Positions 3 to 11,770 of a stretch of 64,000 nucleotides of DNA are shown here, piece after piece. The notes below the pieces were generated by a model. It did no database searches. It was not told where the DNA came from and saw nothing but the letters and a program-made list of their open reading frames with translations. Location of the stretch: NCBI RefSeq assembly GCF_000177635.2, contig NC_014836.1:1121001-1185000 (forward strand), given 5' to 3'. A program made the translations under genes and the position numbers. The first letter of the stretch is position 1, and each line of letters opens with the position of its first letter. The DNA is from Desulfurispirillum indicum S5. Lineage in GTDB: Bacteria > Chrysiogenota > Chrysiogenetes > Chrysiogenales > Chrysiogenaceae.

Positions 3-386
3 CAACAGGCATTTTTGCGAAGGCAGAAAATAAGGGATGAACAACAGCAGCAGCAGGAAGCCGCTCAACAAGCTGCCGTGAAACGTCAGCAACAACGCGA
101 AGCCGAAGCTGCCGCCAAAGCCGCTGAAGCAGAAAAACTGGCCAGCATGGGCGAGGTGGAGCGTACATTGTACGAACTGACGCAGATAACTTTACCCGAC
201 GCCCGTAACAACAAACTCATGGAACTATGGTTAAAAATCGACGGCTACACTACCGAGGAACAACAGACCATTGCCCTTGCCTGTAAACAGGAGTTTATCG
301 CCACCAAGAAGTGGTCGGGAAAATTGAAAGAAAAACAGCAGGCGAAAGTCGACAAGGTCAAGCGGATCCTTGGGGAAACAGATTAG
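3..386 (+). CDS. C-terminal part of an unknown Gln/Ala-rich coiled-coil protein
   Basis: The reading frame is open to the left edge of the window, so the gene probably begins upstream and is seen only in part; a TTG at 15 is the first possible internal start. The visible part begins with a charged stretch rich in Gln, Ala, Glu and Lys (about 45 residues), typical of a helical coiled-coil linker. It then becomes a compact helical segment ending in a lysine-rich tail. The stop lies 6 bases before the ATG of the next gene, so the two are probably cotranscribed. I do not recognise the family. Its position directly before a SAVED-domain gene makes a role in a cyclic-nucleotide defence operon possible, but nothing in the residues proves it. 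Confidence 0.6.
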   Translation, partial: QQAFLRRQKIRDEQQQQQEAAQQAAVKRQQQREAEAAAKAAEAEKLASMGEVERTLYELTQITLPDARNNKLMELWLKIDGYTTEEQQTIALACKQEFIATKKWSGKLKEKQQAKVDKVKRILGETD

Positions 387-782
387 GGTAAAATGGAAAC
401 TTTCCTCTTCATGAACGACCACACCTGGGAAATGGTTGACCGAATTGGTATACTGCTGGGCATCATCATGTTCATACCCGTTGCCTGGGCCAGCATGTTG
501 TATATCAGACGCAACTATCTGAAAAAACGACTTGTTGAAAGAGCCCTTAAACGGGCCAGTACTCACCTTGTGGCCTGTGTGGAGCTGACCGGAAAAAGTG
601 AAATTGCCATCAGTGCCAATGACACCATACACAAGCTGAACTTGCAGGGCACGATTCTGCCCCAGCGCGAATTCCGAAGAAGTGGTGTTGAACTTGCGAA
701 TATGGCAAAAGTGGAAAAGCTGCGCGAAGAACTGGTGCAGTTCAAAAAAGAACTGCAACTGCAAAGCCCCGAGTATATACAC

Positions 783-790
783 CTCTTTTA
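783..790. repeat. Left copy of the 8-bp IS target-site duplication
   Basis: CTCTTTTA immediately left of the IS end; the identical sequence occurs at 2098-2105. Removing the IS and one copy restores an open SAVED reading frame. Confidence 0.9.
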
Positions 791-2097
791 GGTTCATCCG
801 GTTAAAGCGTACTTTGAATTATGGAGGGCCTTTATTCTGAGCTCGAAGAATTCCATATCTCTGTATCCATAGGCTTGCCTTTTGAGGGTATCAATTTTGT
901 TGTTGATCCCCTCAAGTGGTCCTGTTGATATGGGGTGATCATACCAGTTCAGGATTCCCTCTCGGTGCTTCTCCAGCGTTTTGGCCATTTTCTTCAATCC
1001 TTTGATAGCTGATGCTTGAGCCCTGTTGATCCAGTCATCGAGGAATACCGTGGCAGTTACCTTGTCAGTTTGTTGCCATATCTGGCGGAGATCTTCTTTC
1101 ATGTAATAGGCAACCGCCAATGGTCGATTGGCCTGCAGGGCAAGTTCAAGGCGTTCATGATCACTGGTTTGCTCGCCAATGCTCTGCGGATTTTTGAGAA
1201 GCATCCAGCGAGTGCCTTTGAGAATGCTCTTGTCATGCTGACTTGTGAGCTCATGGTACAGCTCGCGGCGAATATCGGTAAGGCGTTCATTCATAAGCTT
1301 GACGACATGGAAACGATCAAACACCAACGCAGCAGATGGAAGGTGTTCGAGCACTGCCGACCGGTAAGCCGGACTCATGTCAGCAGCAACGGCTTTGATA
1401 GATGACTTGCGACGACCAAGGCGTTTCCAGAAACCATCAAGCGCTTCTGCCTGTTTGCCTGCTCCAACGTATACGACCCTGGCTGAACCAAGGTCAATGA
1501 CGAGAGTAATGAAGCCATGTTTGCGTCCTGTGTATTTCTCATCAATGGCGATATACTCAAGCCCAGCAAGTGAAGGGCTACTGTAGTGATGATGCAGATA
1601 CTGCTTGAAAATGGACTTGACCAGGTCCCAGCCTATACCAAGAAGCCGTGCTACATCAATGAGGGTCATAGCTTGGGCAAGGGAGACCACATACCGAGCA
1701 AATGCATGGGTGTAGGAACACCGTGGAGAGGCTATTTTCAGACTCACCCGCCTGACACTACCGCACTGAAGGCACTGGATGCGTGGAACGTGGACGTGCA
1801 ACCAAGTGGACTTGATCCCCAAAGGCAAACCTCGTAACCGACGAATGCTACTGCCGCGTAATATGACAGAACGGCCAAGGCACGCAGGGCAGCGAATCAG
1901 CTTTTTACGGGGCCGGACATGGAAATTGATGGTATTGCCGCAATACTCTGTGCGGATGTAATCGTAGCCAGCAAGGCCGTAGGCATGGTAAAGAACACTG
2001 GTGAGCATGGTGCTTCTCCCGGAATTATTTGGTTGTAATCCCGATAAGTGGCACCATGCTCACTTTTTTGTCAATGTATCCTCAATACGGAAGAGCC
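791..2097 (-). mobile_element. Complete ISL3-family insertion sequence (about 1307 bp)
   Basis: Imperfect terminal inverted repeats match at 14 of 22 positions: 791-812 (starting GGTTCATCCGG) and the complement of 2076-2097 (starting GGCTCTTCCG). The element is flanked by a perfect 8-bp direct repeat CTCTTTTA at 783-790 and 2098-2105, the duplication length known for ISL3 elements. It carries one intact transposase gene whose stop codon (794-796) lies inside the left repeat. The exact duplication and intact transposase indicate a fairly recent insertion. It interrupts the SAVED-domain gene. Confidence 0.93.
794..2008 (-). CDS. tnp: ISL3-family transposase
   Basis: The 404-residue protein has the ISL3 layout: an N-terminal zinc-binding region with cysteine pairs at about C40/C43 and C79/C82, a helix-turn-helix region near residues 110-135, and a DDE catalytic domain. 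Likely catalytic residues are D156 (in IAIDEKYTG), D210 (in AVAADMSPAY) and E366 (in GPLEGINNKID). It starts at ATG 2006-2008, preceded on its strand by GGGAGAAG. It is full length with no frameshift, so transposition competence is plausible. A 13-bp inverted repeat (2001-2013 and 2051-2063) overlaps the start codon and could fold the mRNA over the initiation site. Confidence 0.95.
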   Translation of the reverse strand: MLTSVLYHAYGLAGYDYIRTEYCGNTINFHVRPRKKLIRCPACLGRSVILRGSSIRRLRGLPLGIKSTWLHVHVPRIQCLQCGSVRRVSLKIASPRCSYTHAFARYVVSLAQAMTLIDVARLLGIGWDLVKSIFKQYLHHHYSSPSLAGLEYIAIDEKYTGRKHGFITLVIDLGSARVVYVGAGKQAEALDGFWKRLGRRKSSIKAVAADMSPAYRSAVLEHLPSAALVFDRFHVVKLMNERLTDIRRELYHELTSQHDKSILKGTRWMLLKNPQSIGEQTSDHERLELALQANRPLAVAYYMKEDLRQIWQQTDKVTATVFLDDWINRAQASAIKGLKKMAKTLEKHREGILNWYDHPISTGPLEGINNKIDTLKRQAYGYRDMEFFELRIKALHNSKYALTG

Positions 2098-2217: not shown

Positions 2218-2443
2218 CCCAGGGGTTACCGTTATTGTGACAATACACTGCCAGTGATTTTCAAAAAACGTCACATAAAGACTTCGTAGGCCGTTTTCCA
2301 GGGGTTTGCGAGTTTGTAACTTGTTCTTTAACAAAAGAATATAACTCACTCGGTTATTTTTATATATATTTTATTGCATTTCTGTCCATGTTTGCGAAAA
2401 CAGCCTCTGGAATGCAGCCTGTAAAGGCATCGATGAAGGGGGT
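2218..2443 (+). promoter_or_regulatory. CRISPR leader
   Basis: This gene-free stretch lies between the end of the split SAVED gene and the first perfect repeat. It becomes AT-rich toward the array, with a run of TATAT/TTATT around 2340-2380 and a -10-like TATAAC at 2340-2345. The leader is assigned here because the repeat at the opposite end of the array is degenerate, as expected for the old, leader-distal end, and because the repeats read left to right end in ATTGAGAC, similar to the ATTGAAAC/G handle of many type I/III repeats. I could not fix a -35 box with good spacing. Confidence 0.65.
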
Positions 2444-5400
2444 GACCGAAGACCTGTCGGAAACGACGGGGATTGAGACACTTTTCTCCATATTTTGCCG
2501 AACTTTGCCTTTAAGCGACCGAAGACCTGTCGGAAACGACGGGGATTGAGACGCGTGAGCCTGTTATGCTGGGCTCTGCTTTGTTGACCGAAGACCTGTC
2601 GGAAACGACGGGGATTGAGACACATACTATGGAGTTTGAGAACTTCTTTTATTTCTGACCGAAGACCTGTCGGAAACGACGGGGATTGAGACGGCTACCC
2701 AGTCATAGTCATTAGTTGCCAACATTCTAGGACCGAAGACCTGTCGGAAACGACGGGGATTGAGACTTGGCCATAACCGTCACTTCTGAGAACATTTTCA
2801 GCCGTCGACCGAAGACCTGTCGGAAACGACGGGGATTGAGACTAAAATTTTTTGTGTATATCCCTGCACTGTTTTTTGACCGAAGACCTGTCGGAAACGA
2901 CGGGGATTGAGACGAATTTAAGGAAGTGACATATACGTCATCTTCCGGGACCGAAGACCTGTCGGAAACGACGGGGATTGAGACGACATAAACCACCTCT
3001 CAAAAATTATTTACCTGGGACCGAAGACCTGTCGGAAACGACGGGGATTGAGACCGCGACGGTTGTCGCGTTGCTGTGCTGGAGGGGCACGACCGAAGAC
3101 CTGTCGGAAACGACGGGGATTGAGACGAGAATGTCACTTTCTAGTGAATTTAAGGAAGTGACCGAAGACCTGTCGGAAACGACGGGGATTGAGACGACTT
3201 CGCAATTCCTCCTTTTGGCGAAAGGACTTGTGACCGAAGACCTGTCGGAAACGACGGGGATTGAGACACGACGGCAGTGCCGTCAGTAAGTATAACTTCT
3301 ATACGACCGAAGACCTGTCGGAAACGACGGGGATTGAGACTCACAAACTCCACCGTTGTTAATAGCGTTTACTAACTCGACCGAAGACCTGTCGGAAACG
3401 ACGGGGATTGAGACATCCTGCACTATTACCCAGCGACGACCTTGGATACGTGACCGAAGACCTGTCGGAAACGACGGGGATTGAGACTCTGCTCACAAGT
3501 TGAGCAGGCGTTCCTGCAGTACTGTGTGACCGAAGACCTGTCGGAAACGACGGGGATTGAGACTCTTACAGTCAAACTCCTTGAACATATGCTTTAACGA
3601 CCGAAGACCTGTCGGAAACGACGGGGATTGAGACCCCTTCCCTTTCAAGAAGAATGGGGCCTTCCGACGACCGAAGACCTGTCGGAAACGACGGGGATTG
3701 AGACGCAAATTGGCGTCTTGCAAATAGGCATCTTGTAAATTGACCGAAGACCTGTCGGAAACGACGGGGATTGAGACAGAGATCAAAACCTCCGGATGTT
3801 GTTTCGGAAAGTTCTCGCGACCGAAGACCTGTCGGAAACGACGGGGATTGAGACGGCTTCGCAGTTCCTCCTGGCTCCTGAAGAACTTGTGACCGAAGAC
3901 CTGTCGGAAACGACGGGGATTGAGACCAGTTTAGGGAGCTTTATAACCGGGCTGTGCGCGACCGAAGACCTGTCGGAAACGACGGGGATTGAGACTCATA
4001 GTCCTCACCCGGCTGAGGTTCGCCACCGAGACCGAAGACCTGTCGGAAACGACGGGGATTGAGACATTCCCTGCGGCAGCCCGAAAAACCAGAACCTCCT
4101 CAGACCGAAGACCTGTCGGAAACGACGGGGATTGAGACGTTCAACATAAGATTCTTGATAAGACGTTGTTTGGACCGAAGACCTGTCGGAAACGACGGGG
4201 ATTGAGACGCTTCCTCAGCTCTGCTATGATTGATTCTCGCTGACCGAAGACCTGTCGGAAACGACGGGGATTGAGACGGTTGACGGATTTACCATCAACC
4301 ATGACACATATAGGACCGAAGACCTGTCGGAAACGACGGGGATTGAGACGCCCTCGTCAGAATCGGAATTCGGCTAGTCGCCTTCGACCGAAGACCTGTC
4401 GGAAACGACGGGGATTGAGACAGCGGTGTAACCCAACTCAATGAAATGATTACGGATGACCGAAGACCTGTCGGAAACGACGGGGATTGAGACGCTGCGC
4501 GCCTGTTCCAGTCATGCATCACTCCCGACCGAAGACCTGTCGGAAACGACGGGGATTGAGACTTTGTTAACGACGCCATGGTCGCCAATAACTTCTAGAC
4601 CGAAGACCTGTCGGAAACGACGGGGATTGAGACATGAACAGGGTAACTGTATAGGCCACTAACCACGGTGACCGAAGACCTGTCGGAAACGACGGGGATT
4701 GAGACGTCAAGTATAAATCGTTTCATGCTACACCCCTTTAGACCGAAGACCTGTCGGAAACGACGGGGATTGAGACCAACTTCAGCGCAACTGCGCTGAT
4801 ATCGGCCTGGTTGACCGAAGACCTGTCGGAAACGACGGGGATTGAGACAAGCCACTAGCCACGGTGCCATATCACACGCTCCCATTGCGACCGAAGACCT
4901 GTCGGAAACGACGGGGATTGAGACGTAGGCCAGTAGGCCATTTTTAAAGGGCTGTCCTCAGACCGAAGACCTGTCGGAAACGACGGGGATTGAGACCTGC
5001 CAGTTTTTTCGTCGACCTCCTTAGTTTTGGTATCGACCGAAGACCTGTCGGAAACGACGGGGATTGAGACATACCGGACGACATAAACATCTGATATATA
5101 GTCTGGGACCGAAGACCTGTCGGAAACGACGGGGATTGAGACAACATAAATCACCTCTTGAATATATTTAACTGGGACCGAAGACCTGTCGGAAACGACG
5201 GGGATTGAGACTGGGGTTGCCATCTCCGAAGGCCAGCTTCAACGCAGACCGAAGACCTGTCGGAAACGACGGGGATTGAGACTCGGAGCCGTGCCCATAT
5301 GCTCCGAGCCAGCGCAGACCGAAGACCTGTCGGAAACGACGGGGATTGAGACGATATGTAGTCTTGAAACTTGTCTCTAAACATCATGCACGACCGAAGA

Positions 5401-6359
5401 CCTGTCGGAAACGACGGGGATTGAGACGTACCAGCAGCGTGTGATGGTGATCGTGTCGCTGCCGACCGAAGACCTGTCGGAAACGACGGGGATTGAGACC
5501 TGCCGTTGTTAAATCCACAGTAAACAGCGTTGAATGTGACCGAAGACCTGTCGGAAACGACGGGGATTGAGACGCCTCAAAGATTGCGTGTGGGGTCAGG
5601 TTGATAAGACCGAAGACCTGTCGGAAACGACGAGGATTGAGACCAAAACGACTTTACCTCTCCACTAATTCCATAAAGACCGAAGACCTGTCGGAAACGA
5701 CGGGGATTGAGACCCTTCCAGTATATCCTGGGGACGAGTGCTGTAGTGACCGAAGACCTGTCGGAAACGACGGGGATTGAGACATCTGCTGTCTCCGTAC
5801 CATCTTTTGGAGAGCCACGACCGAAGACCTGTCGGAAACGACGGGGATTGAGACACGCGACGGTTGCCACGTTACTTTTTTGAATGGGTACGACCGAAGA
5901 CCTGTCGGAAACGACGGGGATTGAGACTCAGGGTCAATAGTCGGCACGTTCATTTCAGTTACGACCGAAGACCTGTCGGAAACGACGGGGATTGAGACAG
6001 ACTTGTTGATGCCCTTAATACCCTTAATCTCTTTCGACCGAAGACCTGTCGGAAACGACGGGGATTGAGACCCCGAAGGCGATCTTCAGGGCAACCGCCT
6101 TGAGGCCGGGACCGAAGACCTGTCGGAAACGACGGGGATTGAGACGCCTTTCCAAGTTCTATTGAAACGTGGCGTTTAGTGACCGAAGACCTGTCGGAAA
6201 CGACGGGGATTGAGACAAAGCCGTTGATGATAGCAGGATAATTCGCCATTGACGACCGAAGACCTGTCGGAAACGACGGGGATTGAGACATGCTCAAGAT
6301 ATTCTTCGCACGAAACATATTCCGACCGAAGACCTGCTGGAAACAGCGGGGATTAAAAG
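2444..6359 (+). CRISPR. CRISPR array, 55 repeats of 36 bp and 54 spacers
   Basis: The repeat is 36 bp, starts GACCGAAGACCTGTCGG and ends GGGGATTGAGAC. I count 55 units, the first at 2444-2479 and the last at 6324-6359. Spacers are 33-41 nt. All repeats look identical except number 45 (5608-5643, one G to A in the GGGGAT block) and the last one, which has several changes. The repeat contains a short internal inverted repeat (GTCGGAAACGAC). Transcription is inferred rightward from the 3' ATTGAGAC handle and from decay at the right end. The neighbouring cas1, cas2, CARF-HEPN and Csx20-like genes suggest a type III (or shared) system. Several spacers resemble or overlap one another. Confidence 0.98.
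6324..6359 (+). repeat. Degenerate terminal CRISPR repeat
   Basis: The last repeat keeps the first 13 bases but has a changed centre (CTGCTGGAAACAGCGG instead of CTGTCGGAAACGACGG) and ends ATTAAAAG. The inner inverted repeat is kept by compensating changes (GCTGGAAACAGC), so the hairpin-forming ability survives. It marks the leader-distal end. Confidence 0.9.
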
Positions 6360-6440
6360 TTGTTATTCCCGGCTGGCTTGCAAGTAGTGTAGAATGCTTG
6401 ATTTGATGTGGAATTCCTCAGAACTGTGAATGGAGGTGTC

Positions 6441-7748
6441 ATGGGAAAGTGCTGCATGGTGACCATGCTTGGTACAATTAAAGCTCCAGCTGATCTGAGC
6501 GAGCGAGCGAGTTATGCTTTGTCGGGTGAGCTGGCTAGCTGCTTTTCCCTGCATGGTTCTCAATATTCAAATACATTACCGATTATAGTTAGGCTATCGC
6601 AGGATATAGGATTCTCCTTGGTTCCCATTGCGACCAGGGAAGCTCTGCGAGTGCAAAGGGATGTTCTTGAAGCCGAGGGATTAGATTATTCATGCCTTGA
6701 AGAGGCTGTTATTATTGAAGAAGATGACTTCGAAGCCACTTTCGCGACTATTAATACCATTTTAGGGGCTGCGGATGAGGTCATTCTTGATGTCAGCCAT
6801 GGTTTTCGTCACCTGCCGATTTTGGCAACTGTCAGTATGATTATTCATAATATTACGCACAGTGAGAAAATTCGTCATATCCTGTTTGCCAAAGAGATTG
6901 ATCCGCGCAAACGCTATGAAATTATCGATTTACGAAAGTATCTGGATATTGCCAATGTGACTTATGTGCTTCACACTTTTGATCGCAATTACACGGTTGC
7001 CGCGACTGCCGCTGTTCGCGATGGGCGTTTAACTGAGCTTATTCGACTATTACAGGAGTTCTCTCGGCATATCTTAGCAAATTCTCTGAACTATCTGGTG
7101 CGTGGCAACAACTCTCTGCTGAATCAGATTCGGGAAAGGCTCCAGAGTATTTCCGATTCTGATGATACTCCAAATCAAAGCTTTGGCAGGTTGCTGGAAA
7201 GAGTTGATACTCATATCCAGAAGGTTCAGGATTGCTTGCAGCAAGAAAGAGAGTCTCTTAAATTTTACAGCCTGGCACGGTTATTGGCTGAGCGGGGATA
7301 TCTTCTTAACTCCCTGACTTTACTGCATGAGGCCATTGGGAGCTACACGCTGGAATCCATTAGTGATAAGTCTTTGCGCAGCCATAATCACTATGAGGCA
7401 ACGAAGGCTGCCCGTGATGTGTTTCTACACCCCCAGAAGTGGCACTCCACGCTTAATGACAATCGAAAAAGAAGCCTTCACCCTCTGGTTGAGAATGGTT
7501 ATAAAAACCGAAAGCTCCTTGATGAAAAGTCAGTCAGCGATTTTGCACAACTCGTCAAGGATGTTCAGGCTTTCCGTAATGATTTAGCCCATGGCAATGC
7601 GGAAAACACATATGGCGATACCTATAGTCGGATTGCAAAATTTATCAGGCGATTTGAGGAAGTCTGTATCAAACGCAACATTTTGGCTATACCGTCTGGC
7701 CTGAGTGATGCAGAGAAGCTTCAACGAGGGATGGGGACTCGCCGATGA
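6441..7748 (+). CDS. csx1: CARF-HEPN ribonuclease, Csx1 superfamily (TM1812-like)
   Basis: The N-terminal half (residues 1-190) is a CARF-type Rossmann fold of the TM1812 group, with the signature DVSHGFRHLPIL near residues 117-128 following EVILDVSHG. The C-terminal part is helical and contains FRNDLAHG near residues 378-385, an R-N-D-L-A-H form of the HEPN Rx4-6H ribonuclease motif. In type III systems such proteins bind cyclic oligoadenylate made by Cas10 and degrade RNA. I chose ATG 6441, 4 bases after GGAGG, over a GTG at 6408. The stop overlaps the next gene as ATGA. No Cas10 is visible here, so its activator must come from elsewhere in the genome. Confidence 0.88.
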   Translation: MGKCCMVTMLGTIKAPADLSERASYALSGELASCFSLHGSQYSNTLPIIVRLSQDIGFSLVPIATREALRVQRDVLEAEGLDYSCLEEAVIIEEDDFEATFATINTILGAADEVILDVSHGFRHLPILATVSMIIHNITHSEKIRHILFAKEIDPRKRYEIIDLRKYLDIANVTYVLHTFDRNYTVAATAAVRDGRLTELIRLLQEFSRHILANSLNYLVRGNNSLLNQIRERLQSISDSDDTPNQSFGRLLERVDTHIQKVQDCLQQERESLKFYSLARLLAERGYLLNSLTLLHEAIGSYTLESISDKSLRSHNHYEATKAARDVFLHPQKWHSTLNDNRKRSLHPLVENGYKNRKLLDEKSVSDFAQLVKDVQAFRNDLAHGNAENTYGDTYSRIAKFIRRFEEVCIKRNILAIPSGLSDAEKLQRGMGTRR

Positions 7749-8128
7749 AAACCCTCTACCTCCTCTTCTCCCACCGCCTCACCGCCGAGCAGGAACGCGA
7801 CGCCCGTGCAAGCCTTGGCGTGGTAAGCTTTGTGCCCCTACCACCTGAGCTGCAGCAGCTGTGGAGCAACCTGCCCCCGGAGCTGGAGGATATCCGCCCA
7901 TTGCTGGAACCCGTGAAGCAGTGGCTGACAGCCAACGCCCGTCCCGGCGACATGGCTCTGGTGACAGGTGATTTCGGTGCTACCTGGGATCTGGTGAACT
8001 TCTGCCACTCCACCGGGATTACCCCCCTCTACTCCACCAGCCGCCGGGTTGTGGCGGAGGAGCGGGATGCCGGTGGTGCCGTTGTCAAGAAGAGCCTGTT
8101 TGCCCACGTGCGTTTTCGCCGTTACTGA
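7745..8128 (+). CDS. csx20: Csx20-like CRISPR-associated protein, probable ring nuclease
   Basis: The 127-residue protein begins MKTLYLLFSHRLT, contains LQQLWSNLPPELEDIRPLL and GDFGATWDLVNFC, and ends with HVRFRRY, a pattern I associate with the Csx20 family of type III-linked CARF-fold proteins. Members are reported or predicted to degrade cyclic oligoadenylates and so switch off Csx1-type effectors. The start ATG overlaps the stop of the CARF-HEPN gene (ATGA), so the effector and its likely off-switch are translationally coupled. The assignment rests on remembered family pattern, not on a search. Confidence 0.72.
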   Translation: MKTLYLLFSHRLTAEQERDARASLGVVSFVPLPPELQQLWSNLPPELEDIRPLLEPVKQWLTANARPGDMALVTGDFGATWDLVNFCHSTGITPLYSTSRRVVAEERDAGGAVVKKSLFAHVRFRRY

Positions 8129-8210
8129 GTCTTCTCAATTCAGAAATTTTCCCGAATGACTCTTCATCCACTACGGACTCCATAATCAGTGAAAACACAT
8201 GGAGGCAGCA

Positions 8211-8450
8211 ATGGTACGTCTTGATCTTGATGGCTTCCTTCCCTGGCCTCAGGATAGGGAAGGGATGGATGATTTGTTGCAATCAGTACTCGCAGAGGTG
8301 CAGCACAGCCGTGATTTGACACTTACTGGTAGTCCGCCGTCATGGCTGTCGATGCAGTTGGCCCATCATCTTGGGCAGTACCTGTCAAGTCTCTATTATG
8401 AGTGCCCAATTGCTGGGCTGGTGGAGGTTTTTGATCACAACCCTTTTTAA
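8211..8450 (+). CDS. Small Csx3-like protein (tentative)
   Basis: This 79-residue protein uses ATG 8211, 5 bases after GGAGG, and lies between the Csx20-like gene and cas1 on the same strand. Its second half, LTGSPPSWLSMQLAHHLG followed by a hydrophobic strand and VEVFDHNPF, resembles the Csx3/Crn3 core (S/TG-x-x-P-x-WL-x-x-x-LAHHL ... strand ... H). Csx3 proteins bind or cleave cyclic tetra-adenylate. The N-terminal half is weakly conserved and the protein is shorter than typical Csx3 (about 100 residues or more). It may be a minimal ring nuclease or cOA sponge, a decayed Csx3, or an unrelated small CRISPR-linked protein. Confidence 0.5.
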   Translation: MVRLDLDGFLPWPQDREGMDDLLQSVLAEVQHSRDLTLTGSPPSWLSMQLAHHLGQYLSSLYYECPIAGLVEVFDHNPF

Positions 8451-8473: not shown

Positions 8474-9475
8474 ATGGCAACAGTCGTTGTTGACGAGCAG
8501 GGTTCCCATATTCAGTACAAGACCAACCAGCTGATTATTACATCGAAAGATGACAATCTGAGCTGGAGTATTCCTAAGATGAATATTGAGCGGTTGCTGA
8601 TTGTTGGGCGCACCACCTTGGCTCAAAGTGCCATGGACTTCTTGCTTGACGCAAGTATTCCCACACATTTTGCTACTACGTCGGGGTGCTATAAAGGGCA
8701 ACTTTGCGGAATGGAAGGAAAAAATGTTTTTGCCCGTATGAAGCAATACGAGCGCTATGCCAATCCAGCGTATCGCAATGGGCTGGCCAGGGTAATTGTG
8801 CGGCAGAAGGTGAATAACCTGCGTTATTTTCTGGCTAAGCATAATCGCTACCATGAGAATCGTGTTATTGAGGATGCGATTGTCCAGATCAAGGCGACAT
8901 TGCAGGGCTTGGACAAAGCCACCAACACAGACGAAATTCGTGGTATTGAGGGAGCCTGTGCTGCCACATACTTTCAGGCGTTTGGGTCGATTTTTGAAGA
9001 CAGAGAATTTCAATTTCGCAAAAGAAGCCGCCGTCCGCCCCTGGATCCCATCAATGCTATGTTGAGTCTTGGATACACAGTGCTCCTCGCGGAGGTCATT
9101 ACAGCATTACAGAGTACTGGGCTTGATGCCTATGTGGGCTATCTGCACAGTGCTGAATATGGGCGTCCTTCACTTGCCTGCGATTTACAGGAAGAGTTTC
9201 GCTTTGTGGTGGATGAGCTTGTGGTCAAACTGGTGAATTTGAAACAGGTGAAAGCTGAGAGCTTTGAATACCAGGAGGATGGTGCAGTTATACTCACAGA
9301 GCCTGCGCGGGAAGTCTTTTACCGGGCTTTCGAACGTAAGATTCGAGGAGGGACGATATACGACGGCAAACGACATTCTTACCGGCGTATTATTCAGCAG
9401 CAGGCGCAAAAGCTCAGCAAGTCTCTGTTTGAAAGCGAACCCTCTTACCAGCCATTTGTGCGGCCTCAGAACTGA
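8474..9475 (+). CDS. cas1: CRISPR integrase Cas1
   Basis: This 333-residue protein carries the metal-binding residues of Cas1 in their usual contexts: E159 in RGIEGACAATYF, H225 in GYLHSAEYGRPSLACDL, and D237/E240 just after. With Cas2 it integrates new spacers at the leader end. The length is normal for a stand-alone Cas1, with no reverse transcriptase or Cas4 fusion. The ATG at 8474 follows GAGGA. It is 23 bases from the small Csx3-like gene and 3 bases from cas2, so the run from csx1 to cas2 is probably one operon. The subtype cannot be read from the residues alone. Confidence 0.96.
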   Translation: MATVVVDEQGSHIQYKTNQLIITSKDDNLSWSIPKMNIERLLIVGRTTLAQSAMDFLLDASIPTHFATTSGCYKGQLCGMEGKNVFARMKQYERYANPAYRNGLARVIVRQKVNNLRYFLAKHNRYHENRVIEDAIVQIKATLQGLDKATNTDEIRGIEGACAATYFQAFGSIFEDREFQFRKRSRRPPLDPINAMLSLGYTVLLAEVITALQSTGLDAYVGYLHSAEYGRPSLACDLQEEFRFVVDELVVKLVNLKQVKAESFEYQEDGAVILTEPAREVFYRAFERKIRGGTIYDGKRHSYRRIIQQQAQKLSKSLFESEPSYQPFVRPQN

Positions 9476-9478
9476 ATC

Positions 9479-9754
9479 ATGATTGTTATTATCGCTTACG
9501 ATATACCCAGTACGAAAAGGCGCACACGCCTGCACAAGGCATTAAAAGGCTATGGTGTGAATGCTCAGCGCAGTGTTTTCGAGTGTGACGTGCAGCCCGA
9601 GCAGATGAAAGGGTTACTGACGATGCTGGAGTTTATGATTGACCCCAGTGAAGACGACTTGCGGGTGTATCCGTTATGTAAAGGATGCCAGGAAAAGGTG
9701 ATGGGTATGGGTATTGGAGATTTTAATCGCAGTGAGGAGATTATTGTAATTTGA
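9479..9754 (+). CDS. cas2: CRISPR adaptation protein Cas2
   Basis: The 91-residue Cas2 begins MIVIIAYDIPSTKRRTRL with the conserved metal-binding D8. It continues with GYGVNAQRSVFEC and a C-terminal LCKGCQEKV pair of cysteines common in one Cas2 group. It bridges Cas1 dimers during spacer integration. It follows cas1 by 3 bases. No cas gene follows directly downstream on this strand. Confidence 0.96.
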   Translation: MIVIIAYDIPSTKRRTRLHKALKGYGVNAQRSVFECDVQPEQMKGLLTMLEFMIDPSEDDLRVYPLCKGCQEKVMGMGIGDFNRSEEIIVI

Positions 9755-9852: not shown

Positions 9853-10449
9853 ATGGGAAGATGTTTCCTCAGGAAATTTATCAGGGCATTTTTGGTAATC
9901 GGGAGTGTGGCGATGGCTGCCAATGCATCACACCTTAGCGAGGGTACGAAATACGGTGGCCTGAGTTATACCATGATGGACTATGACTTGGATGGTGTGT
10001 CCGAGAGCTATTCGCCCGCTGCCTTGACAGGTCGGTTGGGGATTTTTGTGAAGGAGGGCATTGCAGTTGAAGGGCGGCTGGCTCTTGAGATATCAGATGA
10101 CAGCCATTCCTATGATGCAAGTTGGGGTGAAGCCAAGGTGACTCTTGGATTGAAAAGTCTGATAGGTGCTTATGTCATTGGACATGTCCCCCTTGAAAAT
10201 GTTGGTAGTATCTATGGAGTGCTAGGATTTACGAAACTTGAGACCAGCGTGAGGTATCAGGAATATGATAATTCATGGGGATATTACAGTGAAAGTGCGT
10301 CAGAGTCTGACAGCGGGCTTTCCTATGGTTTTGGTTTTGACTGGAAAGTGAGGAGTGATGTTGCGCTGAATATTGAATATATGCTGTATGTTAATGAGTC
10401 AGATTATTCTATGTCCGCGCTGAATATGGGGATTAAGTTTTACTTTTGA
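9853..10449 (+). CDS. Small outer-membrane beta-barrel protein (OmpA-like/opacity type)
   Basis: The 198-residue protein begins with a Sec signal peptide (basic MGRCFLRKFIR, hydrophobic core, cleavage near ANA-S). Alternating polar/aromatic strands follow, and it ends in phenylalanine (NMGIKFYF), typical of a barrel recognised by the BAM machinery. Internal repeats of Gly-aromatic-Gly pattern (YGFGFDWK, YGVLGFTKL) suggest an eight-stranded OmpA-like barrel. It starts after AAGGAG. It sits inside the CRISPR locus but no link to defence can be inferred. A strong hairpin terminator follows. Confidence 0.8.
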   Translation: MGRCFLRKFIRAFLVIGSVAMAANASHLSEGTKYGGLSYTMMDYDLDGVSESYSPAALTGRLGIFVKEGIAVEGRLALEISDDSHSYDASWGEAKVTLGLKSLIGAYVIGHVPLENVGSIYGVLGFTKLETSVRYQEYDNSWGYYSESASESDSGLSYGFGFDWKVRSDVALNIEYMLYVNESDYSMSALNMGIKFYF

Positions 10450-10497: not shown

Positions 10498-10527
10498 AGC
10501 ACCGTGAAGAGTCATCTTCACGGTGCT
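10498..10527. terminator. Bidirectional hairpin terminator
   Basis: A perfect 13-bp stem (10498-10510 with 10515-10527) and a 4-base loop GTCA lie between two convergent genes. The right arm overlaps the stop region of the Cas2-like gene; a short T run follows on the + strand (10532-10536). Confidence 0.75.
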
Positions 10528-10790
10528 TGAGTTTTTGCCATTCTACTGAGTCCTGTCCCGATGGTAATAACTTGCTGTTCACAATAAGGGCATGGGGTGT
10601 AGATGCGTATTTCATCGAGGTCTGGCTCTATCACAAGCTCCAGTGCAGAACGTAATTGTTTTGCCTGCAGGGTGGTTAAATTGCAGGTAACTATATTGTG
10701 ATCTGTTGGAATATGGAAACTTTGCAGTATTCTGATTAGTCGTTCACGGCGTTTTTTTTCAGGAACAAAGCAGGTAATGATGTAATCCAT
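10518..10790 (-). CDS. Cas2-like protein without the conserved aspartate
   Basis: The 90-residue product aligns without gaps for its first 80 residues to the Cas2 at 9479-9754, with about one third identity by eye. Shared features include xxIIxxxxPxxKRRxRL, C36, a run ending in RxY, and the C-x-x-C pair at 67/70. The metal-binding D8 of Cas2 is replaced by phenylalanine (ITCFVPEKKRR). It starts after AGGAGG and is transcribed divergently from the CARF-family candidate gene. It may be a structural or regulatory Cas2 paralogue, part of a second adaptation module, or a decaying copy; the intact frame and good ribosome-binding site argue against simple decay. Confidence 0.7.
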   Translation of the reverse strand: MDYIITCFVPEKKRRERLIRILQSFHIPTDHNIVTCNLTTLQAKQLRSALELVIEPDLDEIRIYTPCPYCEQQVITIGTGLSRMAKTQAP

Positions 10791-10888
10791 GGGTTTCCTC
10801 CTATGATAAGGTATACTGTATATATAACGTTGTCATGCCAGCTCAGGGGTCACAGGATTTTTCCTGAGTGTTTTCACAAGGAGCCTCC
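10791..10888. promoter_or_regulatory. Divergent promoter region of the Cas2-like/CARF-like pair
   Basis: A 98-bp spacer between two divergent starts, with an AT-rich core GTATACTGTATATATAAC near 10811-10828. This core could supply -10 boxes for both strands and includes the palindrome GTATAC. The + gene has AAGGAG and the - gene AGGAGG in place. An operator for a CARF/wHTH regulator is conceivable but unproven. Confidence 0.45.
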
Positions 10889-11770
10889 ATGTCTTCACGT
10901 AATCTCATTATTCAGTCGGGCAATATCTATCAGCCTATGACCATGGGGATTTCCATGGTGCGTGAACGCTGTGAAATCGGCGAGGTATTTGTGTTGACCA
11001 CTTTCTCGCTGGTTCCCGAGATTGACAAACTGCTGAATCGCTTTTTTCCGGATATTCCGCGCCGGATATTTGGCATGTACGTCAGCGCCAAGGGCAGTGC
11101 TTCCGATCAGCGGGAGTACCGCAAGAATGTGGAAAAGGTGTTGCGTCTGGCGGGCGAGAACCCCATCGCCATGATTGCCAGCGGCACCAACTGGATGACC
11201 TGGCACTTTGCCCGGTACCTGGGAGATATGGAGGCGTATACGGTGCGCACCCGCAAGGAGTTTCAGGAGAAATCCTTCCTGCCGGAGAGGGATGCGGTGA
11301 CCGTTGACCCGGCGGGCAATGTGATTCACCACGAGGGGCAGATCTGCGAACTGGTTCCGCTGAACGCCGACTGCCCCAGGCCGCGGCTGGATATTCAGGG
11401 GCGTACCATCCATTTCCTGGATCATCATATAGAGCTGCCTATGCAGCAGGCGGCCATGTATGCCTTCATGGTGGAAAACGGTTGCTATCTGGATATGCGC
11501 GAAGACTACACTCAGGCTTTCAATGATTTCTGCGAGCGCTCATCCCAGTTTGATACGTACCGGGCCATGCTTGATGATGGGAAATCCTTCTATGAGCGTT
11601 TCAAGCAGAATGTTTCCAAAATCAACAGCCATCTGCGCCAGTGCGAAGAGATTGTGCGGCTGCACCTGAGTATAGAAAAGGATGAAGATTCGCCGGTGGA
11701 TGTGTACCGTCTCGGCGTGCTTTCAGACCGCGTGGTGGAGGGCTGGGAGCTGGAGGAGCCGGAAGCGTGA
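10889..11770 (+). CDS. Probable CARF-domain protein with helical C-terminal domain (Csx14/NE0113-like)
   Basis: The 293-residue protein begins with a Rossmann-like strand and loop (NLIIQSGNIYQPMTMGI), a second strand EVFVLTTFSL, and later MIASGTNWMTWHFARYLG. This arrangement resembles CARF domains of the NE0113/Csx14 group, where the loop after strand 1 and the glycine-rich SGTN loop bind cyclic oligoadenylate. The C-terminal part (LPMQQAAMYAFMVENG ... FYERFKQNVSKINSHLRQ) resembles the winged-helix tail of that group. No HEPN or nuclease motif is visible, so a ligand-responsive regulator is the best guess. I chose ATG 10889 after AAGGAG. The family call is an inference from pattern. Confidence 0.5.
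   Translation: MSSRNLIIQSGNIYQPMTMGISMVRERCEIGEVFVLTTFSLVPEIDKLLNRFFPDIPRRIFGMYVSAKGSASDQREYRKNVEKVLRLAGENPIAMIASGTNWMTWHFARYLGDMEAYTVRTRKEFQEKSFLPERDAVTVDPAGNVIHHEGQICELVPLNADCPRPRLDIQGRTIHFLDHHIELPMQQAAMYAFMVENGCYLDMREDYTQAFNDFCERSSQFDTYRAMLDDGKSFYERFKQNVSKINSHLRQCEEIVRLHLSIEKDEDSPVDVYRLGVLSDRVVEGWELEEPEA

Follow-up and report, generated by a model that had tools for sequence, protein, structure and literature searches.

A degenerate Cas2 paralogue and a divergent CARF protein gene at the edge of a type III-A CRISPR island in two genera of Chrysiogenaceae

The type III-A CRISPR island of Desulfurispirillum indicum S5 ends in a divergent pair of genes. One (Cas2-like) encodes what is, on the evidence of its sequence, a genuine paralogue of the Cas2 family from which residues kept throughout the other surveyed Cas2 proteins have been lost; the other encodes a protein whose N-terminal half is predicted to have a CARF fold. 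The best reading of the pair is that it is a Chrysiogenaceae-specific accessory module of the island. All positions refer to the window, the whole stretch of 64,000 nucleotides that was analysed (NC_014836.1, positions 1,121,001 to 1,185,000). The divergent arrangement about a common region of 98 bp, reported in a preliminary description of this DNA, proved exact in its coordinates: 10518-10790 (-), 10791-10888 and 10889-11770 (+).

Position and conservation of the pair

The features of the locus are collected in Table 1. Directly upstream lie cas6, cas10 and csm genes, followed by the array, the CARF-HEPN effector and Csx20 (families by inspection of the open reading frames). The Cas10 of the island carries both the HD (LLHDIGK) and the GGDD motifs, and cyclic-oligoadenylate (cOA) signalling is therefore plausible; cA4 ring-nuclease activity has been reported for the Csx20 family (PMC12409355).

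Table 1. Features of the locus, in window coordinates
Feature	Position	Strand	Evidence
CRISPR array, 36-nt repeat, >50 copies	2408..6354	+	repeat finder
Csx1/Csm6-type CARF-HEPN effector	6408..7748	+	PADLOC CARF2 CARF_HEPN 5.7e-145
Csx20 (family of cA4 ring nucleases)	7745..8128	+	NF040559 1.3e-45
Csx3-like small protein	8199..8450	+	PADLOC Csx3 1.6e-17
Cas1	8474..9475	+	PF01867 2.9e-89
Canonical Cas2, D8 present	9479..9754	+	PF09827 1.3e-21
Outer-membrane beta-barrel protein (OMP) gene, between Cas2 and the pair	9853..10449	+	PF13505 4.6e-16
Terminator-like hairpin and T-run 3' of OMP gene	10498..10535	+	terminator scan
Cas2-family paralogue (Cas2-like), 90 aa	10518..10790	-	PF09827 above cut-off; local Cas2 homology
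Divergent intergenic region common to Cas2-like and CARF genes, 98 bp	10791..10888	.	sequence
Conserved dyad CTCAGG-N15-CCTGAG, probable operator	10842..10868	.	inverted repeat in both genera
CARF protein, CARF5/NE0113-like predicted C-terminal winged-helix region, 293 aa	10889..11770	+	PADLOC CARF5, hhalign, models

A survey of co-conservation, set as a test beforehand, found the divergent pair syntenic in one sister genus (genome G002, positions on L015), where it occupies the same place after Csx1, Csx20, Csx3-like, Cas1, Cas2 and the OMP gene. The Cas2-like orthologue there is intact (L015:13739-14011); its frame is not broken, and its start and ribosome-binding site are also preserved. 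In both genera the pair is the last common element of the island and the genes beyond it differ. A third Chrysiogenaceae genome has no Cas2 and likewise no CARF partner. The conservation is thus that of two genera, i.e. one independent comparison.

Of 384 genomes searched with a profile, the two Chrysiogenaceae alone contained the CARF partner. Another three weak profile matches, of about 60-95 residues, were rejected, two on inspection of their frames (flagellar-type and SMC-type) and the third by score alone. Scans of genome collections with short exact peptide patterns, which can miss distant relatives, returned none for the CARF protein or the pair; nor did viral scans with patterns of the same kind, or a plasmid search, return relatives of the CARF protein or of the Cas2-like pair. 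No second Cas2 was seen beside CARF5 genes in 38 loci (mostly with 1.5-kb flanks), in which the 4 Cas2 present all have D8, and the open-access literature yielded no account of a CARF protein paired with a degenerate Cas2 paralogue.

Several other features of the island were observed. The Csx3-like protein of the cas operon (8199-8450) is 59% identical between the genera and has no Pfam or NCBIfam family match. In the sister genus csm5 is separated from the array by the gene for a Cad1-like CARF-adenosine deaminase of 727 aa (L015:3326-5509 of G002) whose CARF part matches PF09623. This gene is absent from that place in the window (386-2008), near which lies an ISL3-type transposase ORF (794-2008; families by inspection), a case of effector presence or absence in an otherwise syntenic island. 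By eye the csm proteins are nearly identical between the genera (L124:10137-13386, L015:62-3320) and closer than cas1/csx1, a sign that the interference module may have been exchanged recently. Within the array, the repeat-spacer units 3160-3267 and 3819-3926 are 91% alike over 108 nt, so that their spacers are near-duplicates, perhaps with related targets. OMP genes separate Cas2 from the pair in both genera (9853-10449 and L015:13070-13699), and an unrelated genome (G208, L045:237-890) also has an OMP-like ORF close to Cas1 and a CARF5 protein; this recurrence is possibly due to chance or to a phage-receptor link. Only G002 has a 106-aa ORF, of unassigned kind, between Cas2 and the OMP gene (L015:12691-13011). 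Two tandem Cas2 genes in another unrelated genome (G355, L084:544-1136) both have D8 and represent a Cas2 duplication of a different kind.

The Cas2-like paralogue

The Cas2-like ORF scores 25.1 bits against PF09827 (Pfam cut-off 23.8; E 2e-5) and is a PADLOC Cas2d match (7e-15); its score against NCBIfam TIGR01573 is under the cut-off (15.2 vs 24.5). Alignment with the local Cas2 is gap-free, with 26/80 residues identical (33%; BLASTP E 1e-17), and F stands in place of D8, both as the preliminary description had stated. The KRRxRL and CxxC signatures that it also named are present in the window copy (KRRERL, CPYC) but not in the sister-genus orthologue, which reads MRRWRL and is without CxxC; these signatures are therefore not what selection preserves.

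The losses were placed against a survey of 56 distinct Cas2 sequences, collected from genomes with a profile of the paralogues and from CARF5 loci. Position 8, F in the window copy and T in the sister-genus orthologue, is D in 54/54 of the others. The S-x-F-E motif is replaced by NIVT and GVAQ respectively; its S and its F/Y are each kept in 54/54 other Cas2, and both are gone only in the two paralogues. The hydrophobic tail strand in which nearly all other surveyed Cas2 end (e.g. EEIIVI, DPITVIL, REVYIV) is also lost, the C-termini reading AKTQAP in the window and LNKKRL in the sister genus, although the latter paralogue, with 2 hydrophobics among its last 6 residues, overlaps the low end of the other Cas2. 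In the E. coli complex the C-terminal tail of Cas2 docks on Cas1. The region equivalent to beta-5 is still hydrophobic in both paralogues (QVITIG in the window, APILIG in the sister genus); this is the strand exchanged between Cas2 protomers upon dimerisation (PMC5438308, PMC9510766). The Cas2-like stop codon sits within the terminator hairpin of the OMP gene in both genera (window 10498-10535; L015:13715-13751), consistent with a shortened C-terminus.

It does not follow that the protein is inert. Both DNase and RNase activity persisted in a Leptospira Cas2 that has H8 and a truncated C-terminus (PMC9510766), which is a warning against calling the paralogue dead. This precedent also speaks for Cas2-like being a nuclease by another mechanism, e.g. 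a VapD-like metal-independent RNase, and serving as a cOA-controlled effector. However, D8, the F of S-x-F and the surrounding motif have been lost together and replaced differently in each genus, and we regard such an activity as very improbable.

Between the two genera the Cas2-like proteins are 46% identical, compared to 83% for the CARF protein, 84% for Cas1 and 90% for Cas2, and dN is 0.55 against 0.069 for Cas2, i.e. evolution about 8 times faster. Nevertheless, codon differences amount to 40% at positions 1+2 and 61% at position 3 (Fisher p 0.002), and in simulations of neutral divergence the frame remains open in only 2-3%. These comparisons indicate a constraint on the paralogue that is weak but real. 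A pseudogene was considered and ruled out by the codon-position constraint and the open frame. A tree joins the two paralogues (support 97/94) but does not show whether they descend from the local Cas2.

The rate difference bears upon a competing explanation, in which the CARF protein serves the CRISPR island as an autoregulatory CARF-wHTH protein or a ring nuclease and Cas2-like is relaxed, reassigned or near-dispensable, outside adaptation, the two being neighbours by history. The contrast between a fast-diverging paralogue and a partner with the constraint of Cas1 speaks for it; the loss of further signature residues in the sister genus, the position of the stop codon within the neighbour's terminator in both genera and a dyad nearer the CARF gene (see below) all point the same way. 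Set against it are the preservation in both genera of the frame, start and ribosome-binding site, the significant constraint on codon positions 1+2, and the way in which the pair stays together at the island edge while the genes beyond it differ. This explanation is doubtful on balance, but it is to be taken seriously.

The CARF partner and the shared intergenic DNA

The ATG of the CARF protein is at 10889 and its frame is already open from a GTG at 10868. The protein gave no match in Pfam at E up to 1, including PF09623 and Csa3_N (PF22662), and no significant match in NCBIfam; PF09623 itself had no match in the window's own genome. Its only sequence match is to PADLOC CARF5 (PDLC01904; E 1.8e-4, residues 162-276), which the sister-genus orthologue also matches (4.7e-4), again in its C-terminal part only. 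Alignment of 33 CARF5/NE0113 proteins with the two orthologues by hhalign (prob 84, E 8e-6) covers the C-terminal region including the SKIN motif.

An AlphaFold2 model (24 sequences) has a mean pLDDT of 75.5; over residues 1-120 the means of 10-residue segments are 72-93. When residues 1-161 of two models were compared with known structures the top matches were almost exclusively CARF proteins (Z 9.5-13.6), among them Can2, Cad1, Card1, Csm6, Sso2081 and Csa3; the VIA Z for the N-terminal half was about 13 against Cad1, Can2, Card1 and Sso2081. The models thus support a CARF (Rossmann-like) fold for the N-terminal half. For the C-terminal half they predict helices at 185-196, 208-216, 221-228 and 234-249 and strands within 262-275, and this half, lying beyond the residues 1-161 used for the structure search, fits a winged helix by predicted secondary structure and homology. 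The preliminary description depended on a CARF fold in the partner, and the models do match CARF structures; the likeness that it drew to Csx14/NE0113-type CARF-wHTH proteins is borne out by the CARF5 match, the hhalign result and the CARF-like models. In the alignment the CARF5 motif GGRKTM reads SGTNWM in both genera and the four-cysteine insert of CARF5 proteins is absent. The protein is therefore a divergent relative, outside NE0113 proper, and its binding of cOA may have been lost or altered.

In the intergenic DNA, AGGAGG precedes the Cas2-like ATG and AAGGAG the CARF ATG. Most of this DNA is dissimilar between the two genera, the exception being a single block, TCAGGGNTCNCNGNATTTTTCCTGA, which is 21/25 identical between them; 0/3000 dinucleotide shuffles were as good. 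The core of the dyad is TCAGG-N15-CCTGA, with half-sites 21 bp, or two helical turns, apart. The whole dyad lies 20 bp upstream of the CARF ATG and 52 bp upstream of that of Cas2-like. Its arms are 6 bp in the window and 8 bp in the sister genus, and the outer arm pair differs on both sides between the genera, C-G to T-A. With up to 3 mismatches allowed, the dyad was found once per genome in both genomes; since it is confined to the promoter of the pair, no wider cas regulon is indicated. A structure in RNA is not favoured, as folding was no better than that of shuffles (z -0.5 and -0.6). The dyad is likely to be an operator bound by a dimeric regulator, for which the CARF protein is the simplest candidate.

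Alternatively, the partner could be mainly a ring nuclease of the Crn1/Csx14 type with a structural C-terminal domain, the dyad being a 5'-UTR element or the site of another regulator. The best Foldseek match is indeed the ring nuclease Sso2081, Csx14 has been placed within the Crn1 family (PMC12409355), and S10, present in both genera, lies near the position of the Crn1 active-site serine; the residues named in PDB titles of Sis0811 are S12 and K169. But the low-confidence region 134-152, the possible site of an equivalent lysine, contains none common to both genera (Q/K at 151), Csx20 already provides ring-nuclease function, and a DNA-binding dimer would fit the two-turn spacing of the conserved dyad; as an RNA hairpin the dyad is no stabler than shuffles (z -0.5). 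We therefore think a role mainly as ring nuclease distinctly unlikely.

A possible role and comparison with known systems

The model that we favour, tentatively, is one in which a CARF-wHTH regulator controls both itself and the Cas2 paralogue, and the paralogue modulates adaptation. A dimeric CARF-wHTH protein would bind the dyad at 10842-10868 and control its own gene and the divergent Cas2-like gene, the likely effector being cOA made by Cas10. Cas2-like, probably not a usual nuclease, would be a non-catalytic decoy or modifier subunit, pairing with Cas2 and so reducing the assembly of active Cas1-Cas2, and spacer acquisition would be tuned while type III signalling is on. The regulator part taken by itself is probable, while the model as a whole falls somewhat short of an even chance; DNA binding, ligand, heterodimerisation and the effect on adaptation are the parts that we infer. 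A narrower version, in which the CARF-wHTH sensor switches on a dead-Cas2 decoy and mixed dimers with Cas2 brake Cas1-Cas2 integration by dominant-negative feedback, is unlikely.

We favour this model because of the conserved gene order and unbroken frames of the pair in the sister genus and the absence of the partner from the third genome, which has no Cas2, the codon constraint and the residue losses unique to the two paralogues (n=56), and the conserved dyad, CARF fold, CARF5 C-terminal homology, Cas10 motifs and Csa3 precedent. E. coli can acquire spacers without catalysis by Cas2 (cited in PMC9510766), which makes a scaffold or decoy lacking D8 possible. Against the model, evolution about 8 times faster is unexpected in a protein tied to a conserved partner, and only two genera have the pair, SGTNWM replaces the CARF5 motif, the dyad is at one promoter and the tree does not identify the paralogue as a recent duplicate of the local Cas2.

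The model bears on how bacteria limit spacer acquisition during active interference. Control of a conserved, degenerate Cas2 by a CARF-type regulator would, if true, link type III signalling directly to adaptation, by a decoy-subunit route differing from the promoter control shown for Csa3. The pair also shows that an open frame can be maintained for a Cas2 without the catalytic Asp, a point of relevance to the role of Cas2 catalysis, which is unsettled.

Cas2 (PF09827) shares with the paralogue whole-domain homology, a ferredoxin-fold profile, KRRxRL in the window copy and genomic neighbourhood; the paralogue differs in having no D8, S-x-F-E or hydrophobic C-terminal tail, in its fast evolution and in lying outside the cas1-cas2 operon. 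The Leptospira protein LinCas2C_Lai (PMC9510766) is likewise a natural Cas2 without D8 (H8) and with a truncated C-terminus; however, its form arises by frameshift and no CARF partner is described in PMC9510766.

With CARF5/NE0113 (Csx14) the CARF protein has in common its domain order, the C-terminal pattern L-D-x-x-x-R-x-I ... SKIN ... Y-x-x-G-V, TT after strand 2 and a D..R....N motif. It differs in an identity of about 20%, a PF09623 score short of E 1, SGTNWM and the missing four-cysteine insert. MM_0565 of Methanosarcina mazei, a CARF-wHTH protein acting on cas1-solo (PMC7465815), is similarly tied to an adaptation-type gene, but in an archaeal type I-B locus without a Cas2 paralogue.

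The closest functional parallel concerns Csa3. Adaptation genes of Sulfolobus are activated by Csa3a, which binds imperfect palindromes (PMC4333418), and repressed by Csa3b with a cOA analogue (PMC7480081); a second-messenger link to spacer uptake is thus already known from these proteins. They combine CARF with wHTH and have palindromic sites in cas promoters, and csa3a stands beside adaptation genes on the opposite strand. The same architecture beside adaptation genes is found here, with the wHTH predicted from secondary structure and homology. The window pair differs in being bacterial and of type III-A, in its CARF5-like sequence and in that the divergent gene is a degenerate Cas2 rather than cas1/cas2. 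Control of adaptation genes by CARF-wHTH proteins is therefore known; a degenerate Cas2 as its target is new.
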